From contig JAFLSX010000011.1 of NCBI GenBank assembly GCA_022510705.1, forward strand, positions 1 through 54,139: a stretch of DNA of 54,139 bases, given 5' to 3'. The DNA is from Lachnospiraceae bacterium. Lineage in GTDB: Bacteria > Bacillota > Clostridia > Lachnospirales > Lachnospiraceae. The position numbers and the translations under genes are program-made. The stretch's first letter is position 1. Every line of letters begins with the position of its first letter. Below the pieces are notes generated by a model. It worked only from the letters and a program-made list of their open reading frames with translations, did not search any database and was not told where the DNA came from. This document shows, in pieces, positions 2,061 through 51,502 of this stretch.

Positions 2061-3737
2061 TCATTCTCCTTTTTTAAATTTATTATCAGCTGTTACAGTG
2101 GATAGTTGTTCCTCTTGTTCCAATTCTGCAATTTTTCTATCAATTTCTTTTATTAAATCATCTGGCTTTTTTAAACCTGATAGTTCCATATGATTTTTAT
2201 ACGGAAGCACATCAAGAATTTCTTCAATGCGTTCTTTAGACTTGAAATCAATTTGTGACCACATTGGATAACTTCTTTTATCATATTGATATTTAAAATC
2301 ACTTGACACCAAGGGTATATTAAGCTCGTCAATATCTGCTAAGTTACTAATAAAAGGTTTAAAACGTCCATGTAATACAAGTACCTCTCCAACAATTTTA
2401 TCTAACCTCTGTAACTCTGAAGTCGTAAGTACTGGTTTCCCTTGTGAATTCCCCGCATCACCACAAAGTTCAGACATTTCATGTAAAAATTCAATTTCTC
2501 TGCTTGCTAGAAAAATCCAGTTTTCACAGTTAGCCATAATTGTATCAGCCTCTTCTCTATATCGAAGTTTAAGCTGATGCTTACTCTGTAGAAAAAGGTT
2601 AAACCTAATGTTTCGACTCCGAGCCGCTGTGATCATTGCCGGGAAATCATTAATGGTTGGAAGTGCTGAAAATTCATCCAAAATATAATTAACCCTACAG
2701 CCAATACTAACATCATTTTCAAAAGCCATCTGGGCCTTATATACAAGATACTCATAACTCTGTTTAATAAACAGCGAAACCAGTCCATGAAACCCAGTCT
2801 TTTCATCAGGAACAATCAGAAAGATTGCCGTTGGTTTCTCAGTTATCAAATCATAATCAATATCATTTTGTGCAAGCATATTCATCAATGAAGGCTGAAT
2901 TGCTAAGGAACGCATCTTCTGATCAAACACACTTAGAATTCCCGCCCTTGTATCATTAGCGGTTTCAATAGTACCAATAAGTGTAGAAGTTATAAAACTA
3001 TCCGTTTTTGCATATTGCCACCAAGGACTATTCTTATTTGTCAACCAGTTACCGGAGCACAAAGCATCGCGTAATCGCATAATATTACCAATATTAACAT
3101 TTTCTCTAGGTAAATTGTAATCTTTACAGTATTTAAAAAGTAATAAAATAAGTCCAAAGAAAAATGAACCCGCACTATTGTCCCAAAAGGGGTCTGAATT
3201 CGATTTATCTGTAGAAGTTAGATTGATAGCAATATCATTTGCAAATTCATAGGCCCTATCTATATCTCCATCCAAAAACCATTTATATGGTATTGCTAAT
3301 GGATTCCACGCAAAACCATATTGCGGATCTCTAAGATTAATTGCCACTACATTATAATTAAGGTTTTTTAAATACTTAGATGTTTTTGAAAACAATTCCG
3401 CTTTTGGATCAGAGATAATCATTGACTCACTCGCTGCACCTAAAGTAATAATTGTCGGCATTGCTAATAATCTACTTTTTTTTGACCCAGTTGAACCAAT
3501 AACCAGTGAATGCTTATCCGTGTGATCAACATATAGCAATTTATTAGCTTTATTATAGAAAAGTGGAATGCCACCTCTACCATTTCTATCATATGGTTGA
3601 GCATTCTTTGGTTGAATTAATTCAATAGTTACAGATTTACTATCATTAATTTTACAAGCACATAGTTCATTAGTAATCTCAGACTCTTTAGCAAAGCTAT
3701 TGGGATTATTCCTAACTTTCAACGCAACTTCTGACAT
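2061..3737 (-). CDS. soluble VirD4/TraG-type coupling ATPase, orphan
   Basis: This 558-residue RecA/FtsK-like ATPase belongs to the conjugative coupling-protein superfamily. The Walker A region is GSTGSKKSR (about 81-89), with Lys where the second conserved Gly is usual. Walker B is NYILDEF (350-356), followed by the TraG-like PTINDFPAMITAARSRN segment and FLQSKHQL (382-389). Classical VirD4 proteins carry two N-terminal membrane helices; here the first 75 residues are polar, so the protein should be cytosolic. No relaxase, ATPase of the VirB4 type or mating-pore gene is visible nearby. It starts eight bases after the phosphoesterase stop, with AAGGAG inside the last codons of that gene, and is followed directly by the helical gene. 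It may have been recruited for DNA or protein handling outside conjugation, for example in defence. Family call is firm; role is open. Confidence 0.85.
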   Translation of the reverse strand: MSEVALKVRNNPNSFAKESEITNELCACKINDSKSVTIELIQPKNAQPYDRNGRGGIPLFYNKANKLLYVDHTDKHSLVIGSTGSKKSRLLAMPTIITLGAASESMIISDPKAELFSKTSKYLKNLNYNVVAINLRDPQYGFAWNPLAIPYKWFLDGDIDRAYEFANDIAINLTSTDKSNSDPFWDNSAGSFFFGLILLLFKYCKDYNLPRENVNIGNIMRLRDALCSGNWLTNKNSPWWQYAKTDSFITSTLIGTIETANDTRAGILSVFDQKMRSLAIQPSLMNMLAQNDIDYDLITEKPTAIFLIVPDEKTGFHGLVSLFIKQSYEYLVYKAQMAFENDVSIGCRVNYILDEFSALPTINDFPAMITAARSRNIRFNLFLQSKHQLKLRYREEADTIMANCENWIFLASREIEFLHEMSELCGDAGNSQGKPVLTTSELQRLDKIVGEVLVLHGRFKPFISNLADIDELNIPLVSSDFKYQYDKRSYPMWSQIDFKSKERIEEILDVLPYKNHMELSGLKKPDDLIKEIDRKIAELEQEEQLSTVTADNKFKKGE

Positions 3738-45761: not shown

Positions 45762-47993
45762 TTACTCTGCCAGATACATACGCAATCCGCTCTCTATGGT
45801 GGAAATCGTCTGTTCCAACGTAGCGCTGCCGTTTAAGTAAGCCGGCAGAGATTCCATGATCACCTTTTCTATCTGCTCATCCTCCACCAGCCTCTTGTGC
45901 ACATTTTTACACATTTCTATTAGCCGCTCAGCATTTTTTTCACTTACTGCAATGATCGGAAACTCTATCACATCACCGTTTGGATGTGCGAACATGGCAT
46001 AGGCTTCATAGGCGCTTCTGTCTTTATCTTTTTGGTTTTCCAAAGCCTGTATATTGACAGCAAACCCGTCTCTGAAATCACTGTCCTGTACCTCCGCAGA
46101 AAGCGCATACTTCAGAAAATCCTTTGCCACATCCGGGGCATCGGTCCCTTTCAAAATTGCAATTTCACCTATTGGTCTGAATGCGCCTTCAAATGATTCA
46201 AAATTGCCGTTGGTATCCGTCAGGATGGACAGGGGCATCATAGCGGCAAGGAATCCCTCCAATTCGTCGAAAACAACACCCTCTCGGAAGGAATAATCCG
46301 ACAAATGATACGGTGTGATCTCGTCCGTGAAACGATCCACCATCTGACAGTAATCCGTCATATGTTTTAAGCTTTCCAACAATTCTTCCAATTTTCCCTT
46401 ATTTAACTCTTTTTCATTTACCAGCTCCTGTACCATAAAAGGTACAAAGATGGAAGTCAGTTCATCCACCGTCATAGGACCTAACAGCGGCTCTTCATAA
46501 CCGGCCATCACCTTTGACAAATTTTCCATATTCTCTGCTGTGGACGTATTCAGCATGGTACTGCATATAATGCTTAAGGAAATCCTTAAAGGTATGCAGT
46601 ATATCGCACCGTCAGTTCCCGTATAATTGTCTGCCACATTTTTTAATATCTCCCCTTGTTCTGACATTGGTGTCACGATGTCACTGATATCTGCCAGCAT
46701 GCCCTGCTCTACAAAAGCATCTGCATCCAGACCGTCCAATAACAACACATCCAGCTTTTCTCCTGCCAGCAACCGCGTATAAAGGTTCTGTATCTTTGCT
46801 TTTACATCTGCGGTTTCCTGCTCTTCATAAGGAATCCCTATTTCTACCTGCACCTGTACTTCCGGATGCAGTCTGGTGTACATGGCTGCCGCATGTCTGA
46901 TCGTAGTATTATCATAAAGACTGTATACAATAAGCTGTGTTTCCGGCAGCCTGACCAGTTCTGCGTCATAGGTATATTCCATTAAATAGTACGCACCCTC
47001 CTCCGAAAACAAGGCATAATAAGTTGTCGGGTCGGTTGCCGCAATACCTTGGCAATACATGGTTTCCAACGCAAATGTGGTATAGCTTCCCTTTATAATG
47101 CAACTCCATTCGCCCTCCGGTGAATACCTAAACAATCCGCCCCGCCCGCATAGCAGCAGTGAACCGTCTGAGAGGATTGTCAAATGATTATTGGCCCCGA
47201 CACCCATGTCACATTTTGCATTTTCTTCCGGTGCGTCTTTTCCTTGCAGGTATACCTGCAATTCTGAAAATTCCTCATTACTATTTTCGGAGATGACATA
47301 AAATTTATCCCGTGCACCGTATATTTTTCCTGTATACAATTCCGAGGGAAGCTTAACCTCCTGCAGTATCGTTCCATCCTCCCCACTGTATACTTTGACA
47401 TCATTATAAGAAATGCTTGCAATACTACCGTCCTCCAAAACGGCTATATCATCCGGATATTCATAATAATGCCATTCCGGATCCTCTATCCGCCAATCCT
47501 GCGGCGTTATTTCCTCTGCCGTAACACCATCCCCACTGCGATAGAGATAGCCCAGCAGATTTTCTCCCACCATACCTACGAAGTACAGATAAGAATTTCC
47601 GTTTACATTTTCCACCACTCTGCACTGAAAAAGCGCATCTGCATAAGTTATGTTCGTTAGCCATTTGGGCGTATCCAATATAAAACTTCCGTCCTGATAT
47701 AAATAGCGTACAAATCCTATTTCCTGCCCCGTTTCTTTCAGCGAATAAAGGCAAAGCTGTCCCTCCACCTCACCTATTTGAAAAATGTCCTCCCCATTTA
47801 CCCCTTCCGGCAGCCCGATCTCCCGCTCCACATAACCGCCTTTTTCACTACTTTCCGCCCCTGCAGTCCCTTGCATTGCTTCTGTAGGTGTATCTCCGCC
47901 TTCTGATCCCGGACTGCTTTCTGCTTTTCCACAGCCCAATATTCCGCATGATAATGCTGCTGTAAGTAGAATAGCCATAAATTTTTTCAACAT
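45762..47993 (-). CDS. lipoprotein: N-terminal propeller-like domain fused to a family-1 solute-binding domain
   Basis: This 743-residue lipoprotein has a signal with lipobox GILGC (Cys about 21) and a Ser/Glu linker. It continues with about 320 residues of beta-propeller-like repeats (IAVLEDGSIASISYNDVKVYSGEDG, LTILSDGSLLLCGRGGLFRYS). A C-terminal extracellular solute-binding fold (from about 355) has HAAAMYTRLHPEVQVQVEIGIPYEEQ, LLAGEKLDVLLLDGLDADAFVEQG and APDVAKDFLKYALS. Ordinary binding proteins are about 400-450 residues, so the propeller is an addition. No permease or ATPase gene is adjacent. It may be an orphan binding protein that reports to a sensor or scavenges for a distant transporter. 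Confidence 0.85.
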   Translation of the reverse strand: MLKKFMAILLTAALSCGILGCGKAESSPGSEGGDTPTEAMQGTAGAESSEKGGYVEREIGLPEGVNGEDIFQIGEVEGQLCLYSLKETGQEIGFVRYLYQDGSFILDTPKWLTNITYADALFQCRVVENVNGNSYLYFVGMVGENLLGYLYRSGDGVTAEEITPQDWRIEDPEWHYYEYPDDIAVLEDGSIASISYNDVKVYSGEDGTILQEVKLPSELYTGKIYGARDKFYVISENSNEEFSELQVYLQGKDAPEENAKCDMGVGANNHLTILSDGSLLLCGRGGLFRYSPEGEWSCIIKGSYTTFALETMYCQGIAATDPTTYYALFSEEGAYYLMEYTYDAELVRLPETQLIVYSLYDNTTIRHAAAMYTRLHPEVQVQVEIGIPYEEQETADVKAKIQNLYTRLLAGEKLDVLLLDGLDADAFVEQGMLADISDIVTPMSEQGEILKNVADNYTGTDGAIYCIPLRISLSIICSTMLNTSTAENMENLSKVMAGYEEPLLGPMTVDELTSIFVPFMVQELVNEKELNKGKLEELLESLKHMTDYCQMVDRFTDEITPYHLSDYSFREGVVFDELEGFLAAMMPLSILTDTNGNFESFEGAFRPIGEIAILKGTDAPDVAKDFLKYALSAEVQDSDFRDGFAVNIQALENQKDKDRSAYEAYAMFAHPNGDVIEFPIIAVSEKNAERLIEMCKNVHKRLVEDEQIEKVIMESLPAYLNGSATLEQTISTIESGLRMYLAE

Positions 47994-48215: not shown

Positions 48216-48833
48216 ATGCAAGGTAAAGAGAAATGTAAAGCATTAAAAGAAATTCGCAGGCAGATTGCCGAGAAAAACGATATTCCCTATGCGGTTTCTC
48301 AGTGCTCTCATCAGGGGGACTGTAAAGGCACCTGCCCCAAATGTGAATCGGAACTGCGATATCTGGAGAGAGAACTTGCCGTCAGAAAAAATTTAGGAAA
48401 AGCTGTAGCCATAGCCGGTATTTCCATAGGCGCTTGCTCTTCTCTTACCGCATGCGCTCCCATAGAGTCTGCACAAAATACCGTGATTCCTTCCCCCATA
48501 GCAATGCCTGACGGAGAAATGCCGATCGGAACAGTGCCTCCGGAAACACCCGGAACAACTGAAGCCGAATGGCAGCTTCTTTTACCTAATCCCGATGACT
48601 ATCCGGTAATCCCGGCTCCTTCGCCGGATGCGGATAATGGTTATCCAATAAATACACTGGAAACAGAGGGCAGCCTTCCGATAAATACACCGGAGATCGA
48701 GGGTGGTCTGGAAATTGCTCCGGAATTCTTTCCCGAACCGATGACGGGAGAAATCATAGAGGGAGAAGACATCATCACAACTTCGGTGCTGGAAGGAGAT
48801 ATTGCTCTGCCGGAGGATGGCAGCCTTGAGTAA
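48216..48833 (+). CDS. Cys-rich, lipobox-containing, repeat-bearing protein coupled to a radical SAM enzyme
   Basis: This 205-residue protein has an odd layout. Residues 1-58 are cytosolic-looking and charged, with the Cys cluster QCSHQGDCKGTCPKCESE. A hydrophobic stretch (AVAIAGISIGACSSLTAC) ends in a lipobox-like LTAC. Residues 80-205 are acidic, Pro-rich and low-complexity, with a tandem repeat (YPINTLETEGS / LPINTPEIEGG) and several G-E/D-I motifs. The radical SAM gene begins inside its last codons. I read it as a lipoprotein or membrane-anchored substrate or partner of that enzyme. I recall TIGRFAM models for an rSAM/lipoprotein system, mainly in Bacteroidetes; membership is unverified. 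It has GGAAAGG upstream of the start. Confidence 0.8.
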   Translation: MQGKEKCKALKEIRRQIAEKNDIPYAVSQCSHQGDCKGTCPKCESELRYLERELAVRKNLGKAVAIAGISIGACSSLTACAPIESAQNTVIPSPIAMPDGEMPIGTVPPETPGTTEAEWQLLLPNPDDYPVIPAPSPDADNGYPINTLETEGSLPINTPEIEGGLEIAPEFFPEPMTGEIIEGEDIITTSVLEGDIALPEDGSLE

Positions 48834-49476
48834 TGCCGTTCCCACCCTGCCCGTTTTTGCGATCAGAAGGCACCGTCTTACTACGGATGGAAACGGGGTG
48901 TCTACCCTGGTGGGCGCCTATGGCTGTCCCTTGTCCTGTCGTTATTGCATTAATCCTCATGCCTGGAACCCGAAAACTTTAGAAAAATGTATTTCCCTCA
49001 CGCCGGAAGAACTCTATGAACGGGTGAAGATCGACGATTTATACTTTCGTGCCACCGGCGGCGGCATTACCTTCGGCGGCGGGGAATCTCTTTTACATAC
49101 GGAATTTATTTGTGCTTTTCGCAAAGTCTGCGGCCCGGACTGGACCTTAAGTGTGGAGACCTCTTTAAATCTTCCCGGCCACCGGTTAGAGCGGATACTT
49201 GATGTGGTGGATGACTATATTATAGACATTAAAGATCTGGATCCTCTCGTTTACGAATCCTATACCGGGATGCCCATTGACCGGGTTTTATCCAATCTGC
49301 AGTTCTTAAGCGAACGGCTTGCTGCATCGGCCGAAAACGGAAAACCCGGACATGTCCGTATCCGCGTTCCTCTGATTCCGAACTATAATAGCCCTGCACA
49401 TCTGGAACAATCTGTTAGCAAACTGCGCTCTATGGGCTTTTCTGATATCGAAACTTTCTCATATACCATTAGATAA
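48826..49476 (+). CDS. radical SAM enzyme, glycyl-radical-activase-like
   Basis: This radical SAM enzyme of about 216 residues has the 4Fe-4S motif GCPLSCRYC (CX3CX2C) and the activase signature GGGITFGGGESLLHTEF, close to the GGG.TFSGGEPL of pyruvate formate-lyase activase. VETSLNL and DDYIIDIKDLDPLVYESYTG are in the same relative order. No extra ferredoxin clusters or SPASM domain are present. GGAGG (48812-48816) is nine bases before TTG 48826 and touches ATG 48817, so the TTG is the likely start; it overlaps the Cys-rich gene. No glycyl-radical enzyme is encoded nearby, so the Cys-rich lipoprotein is the natural candidate substrate. Confidence 0.87.
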   Translation: MSNAVPTLPVFAIRRHRLTTDGNGVSTLVGAYGCPLSCRYCINPHAWNPKTLEKCISLTPEELYERVKIDDLYFRATGGGITFGGGESLLHTEFICAFRKVCGPDWTLSVETSLNLPGHRLERILDVVDDYIIDIKDLDPLVYESYTGMPIDRVLSNLQFLSERLAASAENGKPGHVRIRVPLIPNYNSPAHLEQSVSKLRSMGFSDIETFSYTIR

Positions 49477-49506: not shown

Positions 49507-49537
49507 TTGACCTTCCACCTTGTGGAAGGTATATCAT
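49507..49537 (+). promoter_or_regulatory. MerR-type promoter/operator with 19-bp spacer
   Basis: TTGACC (-35) and TATCAT (-10, 49532-49537) are 19 bases apart, the long spacer typical of MerR-activated promoters. The dyad ACCTTCCAC-ctt-GTGGAAGGT (49510-49530) fills the spacer and closely resembles CueR/MerR operators. It lies directly before the MerR-family gene at 49562, so autoregulation is very likely. Confidence 0.85.
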
Positions 49538-49561
49538 ATGTTCATAAAAGGGGGAATTCAG

Positions 49562-51502
49562 ATGAAGATCAACGAAGTGGAACAATCCATAGGCATGACC
49601 AAAAAGAATATCCGCTTCTATGAGCAGGAAGGTCTTTTAACGCCGTCCCGCAGCCCCGGCAACGGATATCGGGACTATTCCACGAAAGATTTGGAGACAC
49701 TACGCCAGATTAAGCTTCTTCGAAAATTGGGAATTTCCATTGAGGACATCAAAAAGCTGCAGAATGATTCTCTCACTTTGGAGGATTGTCTTAAACAACA
49801 TCTGATTGCATTGGAGCAGGAACGTAAGAACCTAGAAGCTGTCACAAAATTCTGCCGCCGGCTGTTGGCCACAGATGCCACTTTAAAGAGTATGCCGGCG
49901 GAGCAGCTTCTTACCGATATGGAAAATATGGAGGAAGGAGGAACCCGTTTTATGGGCGCTAAGAACCGGAACGAAAAGGAAGAGGAGAGTATGTCTTCTT
50001 TCGCAATCGTTTTTCTCGTCGCCATTATACTGCCTGCTGTTGTGACAGCGTTCATTATTGGCAGACGTTCTGCGCCGATGGACCAAATGTCTCAAAATGC
50101 GGTACTCTATTCTTTTTACGAGTCCGGTGACTTCTTTTATAACCTAAATGGGGATGTCTATGAACCGGAAAACCAAGTGCGCACGCATTGGTATGGTCAC
50201 GCAGCCGACTCCTCTCTGCTGGCCTATTGGCTTTATGAAGAGGACTCCAGCTATCCCAGTGGAATCCGTAGTGATCTATACTACATCACCGGAGATTTGG
50301 AACCGGTGAAGGTGGCAGAATCAGTGAGAGAGTATATGGTGAGTTATGACGGTTCCTACATTGCCTACTTTCAAAGCTTTGAAAATAATACACATTCCGA
50401 TTTGTATCTGTATGAGGTAAGCAGTGGGGAGTCCACTAAAATTGACGAAGATATTGGGGGCAGCTTCTTTTGCCTCTCTCCAAACGGTAAGATCATAGCC
50501 TACCAAAAAGATTTCTACGGAACACTTTATATAGGCGGCCTGGATATGGAGATCTCCAAAGTAGCCGAGGACGATATAACGCCACTCGGGGTCGTTCCTT
50601 TGGCCGTTTCCGATGACGGAGAGCATCTATATTACATTCACAATAGGGGGTTATATTATTATAATTATAATGAAAAAGATTCCGTAGAGGTAGCATCCAA
50701 TATAGACCCCAACGGTATCTTAGCCTACCGTTTTTGTTTCAACAGAGATATTTCCGAACTGCTGTATGTGGTAAACTTTGAAACCTATTACTATGCACCG
50801 GACTTGGATACTCCCATTAAGATAGTCGATGACCGGATTTATCATGTTCTTGAAAACTCTACTGCAGCTGACGAATATTCATGCAGCACATATGCCGGAA
50901 TTGCCAGGGTTGATACCTTTAAGAACCATGTCCTGCAATCATCGGGTTACGGTCACCAATTGTACTGGCTTAATGAGAATGCAACGAATACGGTAGCGAT
51001 ATCCGCAGACGCTCGTTATAGTATGCTGTCCGCAGACGGAAGATCTCTTTTATATTTAGAGGACGGCATCCTCTACCGATTGGATAGCTTTGGCGAGGAG
51101 ATGAAACCCACCGTTGTATGCGAAAAAACCGACATACAGTATTTTACAGCAAACAGTGATCTGTCAAAGGTTTATATTTCTACAGCACGGGATTTGTATT
51201 ACGTAAAGAATCGTGAAGAAACTGAACAGCTTTCCGACAATTTGGCATATGCGGAATTTGAAGAATACGGTTATTACGAATATTACCCTGTATATGATAA
51301 TACAAGCGGGAAGATTTATTTCTTGGAAGACGGAGCTCTCTATGCAGCAGATAAAAACGAAACCTCTAAAAATAAGGTTGCAGAGAATGCCACACAGCTG
51401 GCCTTGCTGCCGGGTGGTATTTCTTATCTCTGCAACGAGGATGAACAAGCGGTGCGTTATTATCTCCATAACGGAAATGCCATTAAAATTTATACAGAAT
51501 AA
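49562..51502 (+). CDS. membrane-tethered MerR regulator with an extracytoplasmic beta-propeller
   Basis: This 646-residue one-component regulator starts at ATG 49562 behind GGGGGAA; the track start adds 14 codons. Residues 1-70 are a MerR helix-turn-helix (INEVEQSIGMTKKNIRFYEQEGLLTPSRSPGNGYRDYS and LRKLGISIEDIKKL). A dimerisation coiled coil (to about 115) and a charged linker follow. One membrane helix (SFAIVFLVAIILPAVVTAFIIG, about 143-164) leads to about 480 residues of outside TolB/WD-like repeats (LYYITGDLEPVKVAES, YIAYFQSFENNTHSDLYLYEVSSGES). MerR proteins are normally 120-270 residues and soluble. I infer that the propeller senses an envelope signal and transmits it to DNA-bound MerR dimers. 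Confidence 0.9.
   Translation: MKINEVEQSIGMTKKNIRFYEQEGLLTPSRSPGNGYRDYSTKDLETLRQIKLLRKLGISIEDIKKLQNDSLTLEDCLKQHLIALEQERKNLEAVTKFCRRLLATDATLKSMPAEQLLTDMENMEEGGTRFMGAKNRNEKEEESMSSFAIVFLVAIILPAVVTAFIIGRRSAPMDQMSQNAVLYSFYESGDFFYNLNGDVYEPENQVRTHWYGHAADSSLLAYWLYEEDSSYPSGIRSDLYYITGDLEPVKVAESVREYMVSYDGSYIAYFQSFENNTHSDLYLYEVSSGESTKIDEDIGGSFFCLSPNGKIIAYQKDFYGTLYIGGLDMEISKVAEDDITPLGVVPLAVSDDGEHLYYIHNRGLYYYNYNEKDSVEVASNIDPNGILAYRFCFNRDISELLYVVNFETYYYAPDLDTPIKIVDDRIYHVLENSTAADEYSCSTYAGIARVDTFKNHVLQSSGYGHQLYWLNENATNTVAISADARYSMLSADGRSLLYLEDGILYRLDSFGEEMKPTVVCEKTDIQYFTANSDLSKVYISTARDLYYVKNREETEQLSDNLAYAEFEEYGYYEYYPVYDNTSGKIYFLEDGALYAADKNETSKNKVAENATQLALLPGGISYLCNEDEQAVRYYLHNGNAIKIYTE

Follow-up and report, generated by a model that had tools for sequence, protein, structure and literature searches.

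Results

The analyzed stretch of DNA (54,139 nucleotides; hereafter, the window) carries on its plus strand a gene, P0001, that encodes a membrane-tethered MerR-propeller regulator of 646 amino acids (49562..51502; ATG at 49562, stop at 51502). A ribosome-binding site, AGGGGG (49549..49554, plus strand), lies 7 nt before the ATG. The first-pass annotation had begun the feature at 49507, a position that belongs to the -35 box of the promoter; the start codon is the ATG at 49562.

Several other genes of the window deserve mention. Positions 2061-3737 (minus strand) encode what we identified by eye as a VirD4/TraG-like coupling protein, suggesting that a mobile element occupies the left end of the window. 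Positions 45762-47993 (minus strand) encode a 743-aa lipoprotein with a C-terminal SBP_bac_8 solute-binding domain, preceded by ~370 residues that have no Pfam match. Two overlapping genes occupy positions 48216-49476 (plus strand): one encodes a small protein that contains the cysteine-rich motif CSHQGDCKGTCPKC, and the other is short and radical-SAM activase-like. A sister species (G031, JAFLSY) retains this pair upstream.

Within the MerR-propeller protein, residues 1-67 (49562..49762, plus strand) form a MerR DNA-binding head whose best matches are CueR, MerR, and ZntR. The MerR_1 domain scored over the Pfam cut-off (E = 4e-21), and the MerR-family winged-helix domain was recognized by both PF13411 (75.2 bits; cut-off 21.6) and PF00376 (32.3 bits; cut-off 28.2). 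Residues 73-103 (49778..49870, plus strand) are a predicted dimerization helix, or coil, assigned by MerR-family anatomy and modeled with pLDDT 84-93. Alignment places a membrane-proximal helix and a GGTRFM motif at residues 113-131 (49898..49954, plus strand); the final part of this segment is common to the two-helix MerR family described below, and the putative swap junction follows directly after it. The sole strongly hydrophobic stretch of the protein consists of 19 residues, 148-166 (50003..50059, plus strand; hydropathy 3.02), which form a single transmembrane (TM) helix. The remainder, residues 175-646 (50084..51499, plus strand), is predicted to be an extracytoplasmic β-propeller, based on the structure model, profile and fold matches, and homology to zinc-ribbon-TM-propeller proteins.

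The structure model of the full-length protein had a pLDDT of 86, with residues 129-174, which include the TM helix, not confidently modeled. Modeled alone, the propeller was all-β (pLDDT 88.6, pTM 0.88), and we counted by eye about ten units of ~45 residues. A Pfam search of the ~475-residue C-terminal part yielded no family over the cut-off, and profile and fold searches matched the β-propellers of DPP IV, WD40 proteins, tricorn, megalin, LRP6, and Aip1. The matches listed in a PDB fold search were β-propellers, most with at least two rings, and the whole ring superposed poorly on every solved propeller among them (TM ≤ 0.40).

Pfam, hydropathy, the model, and the propeller matches thus support the arrangement of MerR head, one membrane helix, and outside propeller that the first-pass annotation had described; the outside location of the propeller is predicted, on the basis of topology and of the parent families. 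By prediction, then, the protein has the layout of ToxR/CadC-type regulators, with an N-terminal cytosolic DNA-binding head, a single TM helix, and a C-terminal domain outside. It differs from them in its head, since MerR families were the only DNA-binding matches and no ToxR/OmpR-type winged helix was among them, and in its promoter, which is of the DNA-untwisting, long-spacer kind.

That promoter has a -35 box, TTGACC (49507..49512, plus strand), and a -10 box, TATCAT (49532..49537, plus strand), separated by a spacer of 19 bp (49513..49531, plus strand). Positions 49510..49530 (plus strand) form a MerR/CueR-type operator, the perfect 9-3-9 dyad ACCTTCCAC-ctt-GTGGAAGGT. It is the only operator site in the window, and 0.00 sites were expected in window shuffles even when 3 mismatches were allowed. 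Relatives of the head were collected as 62 loci from one scan of genome contigs. The operator is conserved, with at most 2 mismatches, in all 62, at a distance of 50-180 bp upstream of the MerR start. TTGAC is invariant in the 62 promoters, and the spacer to TAnnnT is exactly 19 bp in 61, so that a dyad operator within a spacer of 19-20 bp, as in the MerR family, is found both in the window and in its relatives. No independent second operator site occurs within the 62 loci (3-14 kb each). The operator is also absent before 18 other MerR-family genes of the window genome and relatives, MerR-RDD fusions included (best match, 3 mismatches), and before zinc-ribbon propeller genes (again 3 mismatches at best). 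The operator therefore follows the head shared by the MerR-propeller and two-helix proteins.

Published signals in 19-bp spacers are ACCTTCCC-5-TGGAAGGT for CueR and ACCTTCCAG-3-CTGGAAGG for HmrR (PMC1526738), and compared with these, ACCTTCCAC-3-GTGGAAGGT is an operator of the CueR type. The named family nearest to the head is likewise CueR (TIGR02044), at 53.6 bits against an equivalog cut-off of 147.4, and the nearest solved structure is CueR, which aligns in the same register over residues 1-99. The match stops at residue 99, and beyond residue 98 the sequence is free of cysteines up to the membrane helix, so the metal-binding cysteine loop of CueR is absent. The low score and the missing cysteines led us to reject CueR membership and a soluble CueR-type metal sensor. 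Likeness to CueR and HmrR, which are soluble Cu(I) sensors, is thus found in the DNA-binding head, in the register over residues 1-99, and in the operator (ACCTTCC-n-GGAAGGT in a 19-bp spacer). In contrast to these sensors, the MerR-propeller protein lacks the cysteine loop, is anchored in the membrane, carries a 475-residue propeller predicted to lie outside, and would regulate its own gene. The term "CueR-like" in the first-pass annotation accordingly holds for the operator and the head, not for identity as CueR, and the promoter claimed there, with its dyad in a 19-bp spacer, was borne out across the whole family. Not mentioned in that annotation were the two parent families (two-helix MerR-YbjQ and zinc-ribbon propeller), the syntenic swap, and the ABC-transporter target of the sister species, all described below.

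One of the 62 loci, L033, carries the MerR-TM-propeller architecture in two tandem copies. The remaining loci, from Lachnospiraceae/Clostridia, encode MerR proteins of about 212-229 residues (typically ~213) that consist of a MerR head, a coil, GGTRFM or a close variant, and two membrane helices; in alignments, the tail ends in DEASKY or a variant. At 46 of the 62 loci, the MerR gene is followed in its operon by a gene for a YbjQ_1 protein (PF01906), usually with an overlap, and at 11 a CPBP/Rce1-like protease is then present. The MerR-propeller protein shares the head, coil, GGTRFM linker, and conserved operator with this two-helix MerR-YbjQ family (Lachnospiraceae/Oscillospiraceae), but has one helix and a propeller in place of the second TM helix and EASKY tail, and its locus has no downstream YbjQ/CPBP genes. 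The two-helix family (L034-L094; for example, L038:6001-7908) is apparently undescribed and, with its strict 19-bp CueR-like promoter, is probably the more general finding.

MerR heads related to that of the window are also fused to RDD-type membrane modules (476-515 aa) at L016, L017, and L019. These proteins likewise place a related head on a membrane module; they differ from the MerR-propeller protein in that the module is a multi-helix RDD module and in having neither a propeller nor a copy of the operator. Only three MerR-family proteins were found in the window genome.

The propeller was found in 9 of 138 same-genus genomes, in 13 copies altogether; the N terminus is a MerR head in 3 copies, a zinc ribbon in 9, and a bare anchor in 1. 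A search for the MerR-TM-propeller architecture, which had been proposed as a check, found it in just two of the 138: the window genome (one copy) and the sister species (two tandem copies). The tandem genes (L033:6001-9887) lie ~20 bp apart behind one operator, and their heads are 82% and their propellers 55% identical. The window genome (G000) also encodes a zinc-ribbon propeller paralogue (44% identity, E = 6e-83). With the zinc-ribbon-TM-propeller proteins of its genus, the MerR-propeller protein has in common the membrane helix and a homologous propeller (34-44% identity for zinc-ribbon copies); it differs in its regulated promoter and in the MerR head that replaces the N-terminal zinc ribbon. 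Since zinc-ribbon copies have anchors (GFPFKVVVPLAG..., GFPFKIVVPIAG...) similar to that of a sister copy (GFPFKVVIPAV...), the membrane helix was probably acquired together with the propeller, with the junction directly after GGTRFM.

In two close relatives (L038 and L041), the corresponding chromosomal position is occupied by the two-helix form. Their gene order is histidine kinase, lipoprotein (opposite strand), radical-SAM protein, two-helix MerR, YbjQ, and CPBP, and that of the window is histidine kinase, lipoprotein, small cysteine-motif protein, radical-SAM protein, and then the MerR-propeller fusion. The promoter core is nearly identical between the window and L038/L041. Because the position is shared, the MerR-propeller gene is an in-place swap. 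Phylogenetic analysis of the heads united the window copy and both sister copies in a single clade (support 100/99) nested inside the two-helix family, and L038/L041 neighbor this propeller-bearing clade with moderate support (87/75). The fusion is thus derived, and at this locus it took the place of the second helix, the tail, and the downstream genes. We found no YbjQ gene in the window genome (85% complete); the sister species retains one elsewhere in its genome.

Comparison of the window gene with sister copy a gave dN/dS values of about 0.12 for the head, about 0.17 for the propeller, and 0.46 for the linker and helix (42% identity, 31 codons), all of them rough, as dS is near 1. Judged by these codon comparisons, the head and the propeller are clearly under purifying selection. 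No part of the protein is less conserved than the membrane helix, and a segment with a purely anchoring role would behave like this.

We searched the genomes for further operators, as the first-pass annotation had suggested. In the window genome (85% complete), the only complete operator is the one before the MerR-propeller gene itself. A site at C14:34602 (1 mismatch) was rejected as a second operator, as it falls within an opposite-strand coding sequence and lacks a -10 box at 19 bp; the remaining matches (2-3 mismatches) were about as frequent as those to a reversed-pattern control. The sister species has exactly two complete operators, that of its own gene and one (about L208:7449-7479) before an unlinked MacB-type ABC transporter operon (L208:2194-7424, minus strand). 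This operon encodes a MacB-like permease, an FtsX permease, an ABC ATPase, an NHL-repeat lipoprotein, and a thioredoxin-like protein. The switch in the sister species would therefore control more than itself. No orthologue of the sister's ABC permease was found in the window genome (85% complete). In other species of the genus, operators precede YhfC intramembrane proteases and a PLDc_N-ABC ATPase pair. The sister's ABC operon points to an envelope or antimicrobial-peptide response, and the operator targets suggest such a response for the family. YhfC-type protease genes lie directly behind the operator, sometimes with the MerR gene next, at L183, L184, L185, L187, L188, and L181.

Discussion

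MerR proteins bind at promoters with long spacers and activate transcription by untwisting the DNA. To our knowledge, the MerR regulators of known mechanism are all soluble and read a cytosolic ligand. We found no description of membrane-bound MerR regulators in the open-access literature searched, nor a direct precedent there for the pairing of YbjQ or YhfC with MerR; the one paper there that names both YbjQ and MerR is a persister proteomics study. Transmembrane transcription regulators as such are known and common according to the main text of one survey, in which "MerR" does not appear as a whole word (PMC10269533).

We lean, if only slightly, toward the reading that the MerR-propeller protein is an autoregulated membrane-tethered one-component switch, made by in-place domain swap, with the propeller as its outside sensor. 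The CueR-like head, coil, and GGTRFM linker of a two-helix MerR protein were joined to the propeller and, probably, the helix of a zinc-ribbon-TM-propeller protein, with the family's 19-bp-spacer operator retained before the fusion gene. In the cytosol, the head would sit as a dimer on its own promoter and hold it in the poised MerR state. The trigger could be a ligand bound by the outside propeller, or movement of the propeller by a partner or by envelope damage. Helix and coil would relay the change to the head, and the head would then untwist the DNA and bring the -35 and -10 boxes into register. Transcription of the gene itself would then start, creating a positive loop, and in the sister species the MacB-type ABC transporter operon would be switched on as well.

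Strict conservation of the 19-bp spacer argues for the untwisting mode in the two-helix/propeller family, and it is plausible that, as first proposed, a signal sensed outside the cell drives the unwinding of the promoter. A sensor role for the propeller is favored in that it is constrained while the helix drifts, and in that it replaced the membrane module of the parents. We advance only tentatively, and with some doubt, the wider scheme in which ligand binding by the outside propeller untwists the long-spacer promoter through the tethered head, while the two-helix form takes its signal from the membrane itself and switches on intramembrane proteases and ABC exporters.

Because the sole complete target in the window genome is the gene's own, the propeller may instead be cargo: the head would merely set its level by autoregulation, and, as with the two-helix relatives, it would be the head, coil, or membrane that perceived any signal. 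These relatives use the same operator without any outside domain, so the propeller is not required for the basic switch, and 9 of the 13 same-genus propeller copies sit on zinc-ribbon anchors that have no DNA-binding head. However, the operator on the unlinked ABC operon of the sister species and the poor conservation of the membrane helix speak against cargo, which we consider rather unlikely. Proteolytic release seems more improbable still. Here, the tether would hold the head at the membrane until a signal led to cleavage outside and then within the membrane, freeing the head into the cytosol. Intramembrane proteases (YhfC, CPBP/Rce1-like) do recur in the family as neighbors or operator targets, but neither kind adjoins the MerR-propeller gene, and ToxR-like regulators function without proteolytic release.

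Two further explanations carry very little weight. A tethered plain metal sensor of the CueR kind would suit the CueR-like head and operator and the Pfam label of the relatives' YbjQ ("putative heavy-metal-binding"), but the subthreshold CueR score, the end of the match at residue 99 with the cysteine loop missing, and the absence of copper genes beside the MerR-propeller gene make it very improbable. That the fusion is a recent product of assembly error, or a decaying gene, is hardly credible: the architecture was found in two genomes only, yet an independent assembly holds two tandem copies (57-74% propeller identity), the frames are open throughout, and dN/dS is 0.11-0.25 in the head and propeller, rough as these values are.

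If the MerR-propeller protein is a membrane-tethered switch with an outside sensor, a type of activation otherwise recognized only in cytoplasmic sensors may operate across a membrane. At this locus, a widespread gut lineage would have a DNA-untwisting head anchored to the membrane, whose mode of action is predictable because the operator is so strictly conserved (61 of 62 at 19 bp). The occurrence of both the two-helix parent and its propeller variant at one locus amounts to a natural experiment, in which the head and operator are constant and the membrane/sensor part differs. Two questions thereby become testable: whether events outside the cell can drive MerR-type untwisting, and by what means a tethered dimer would reach and bend DNA at the membrane.
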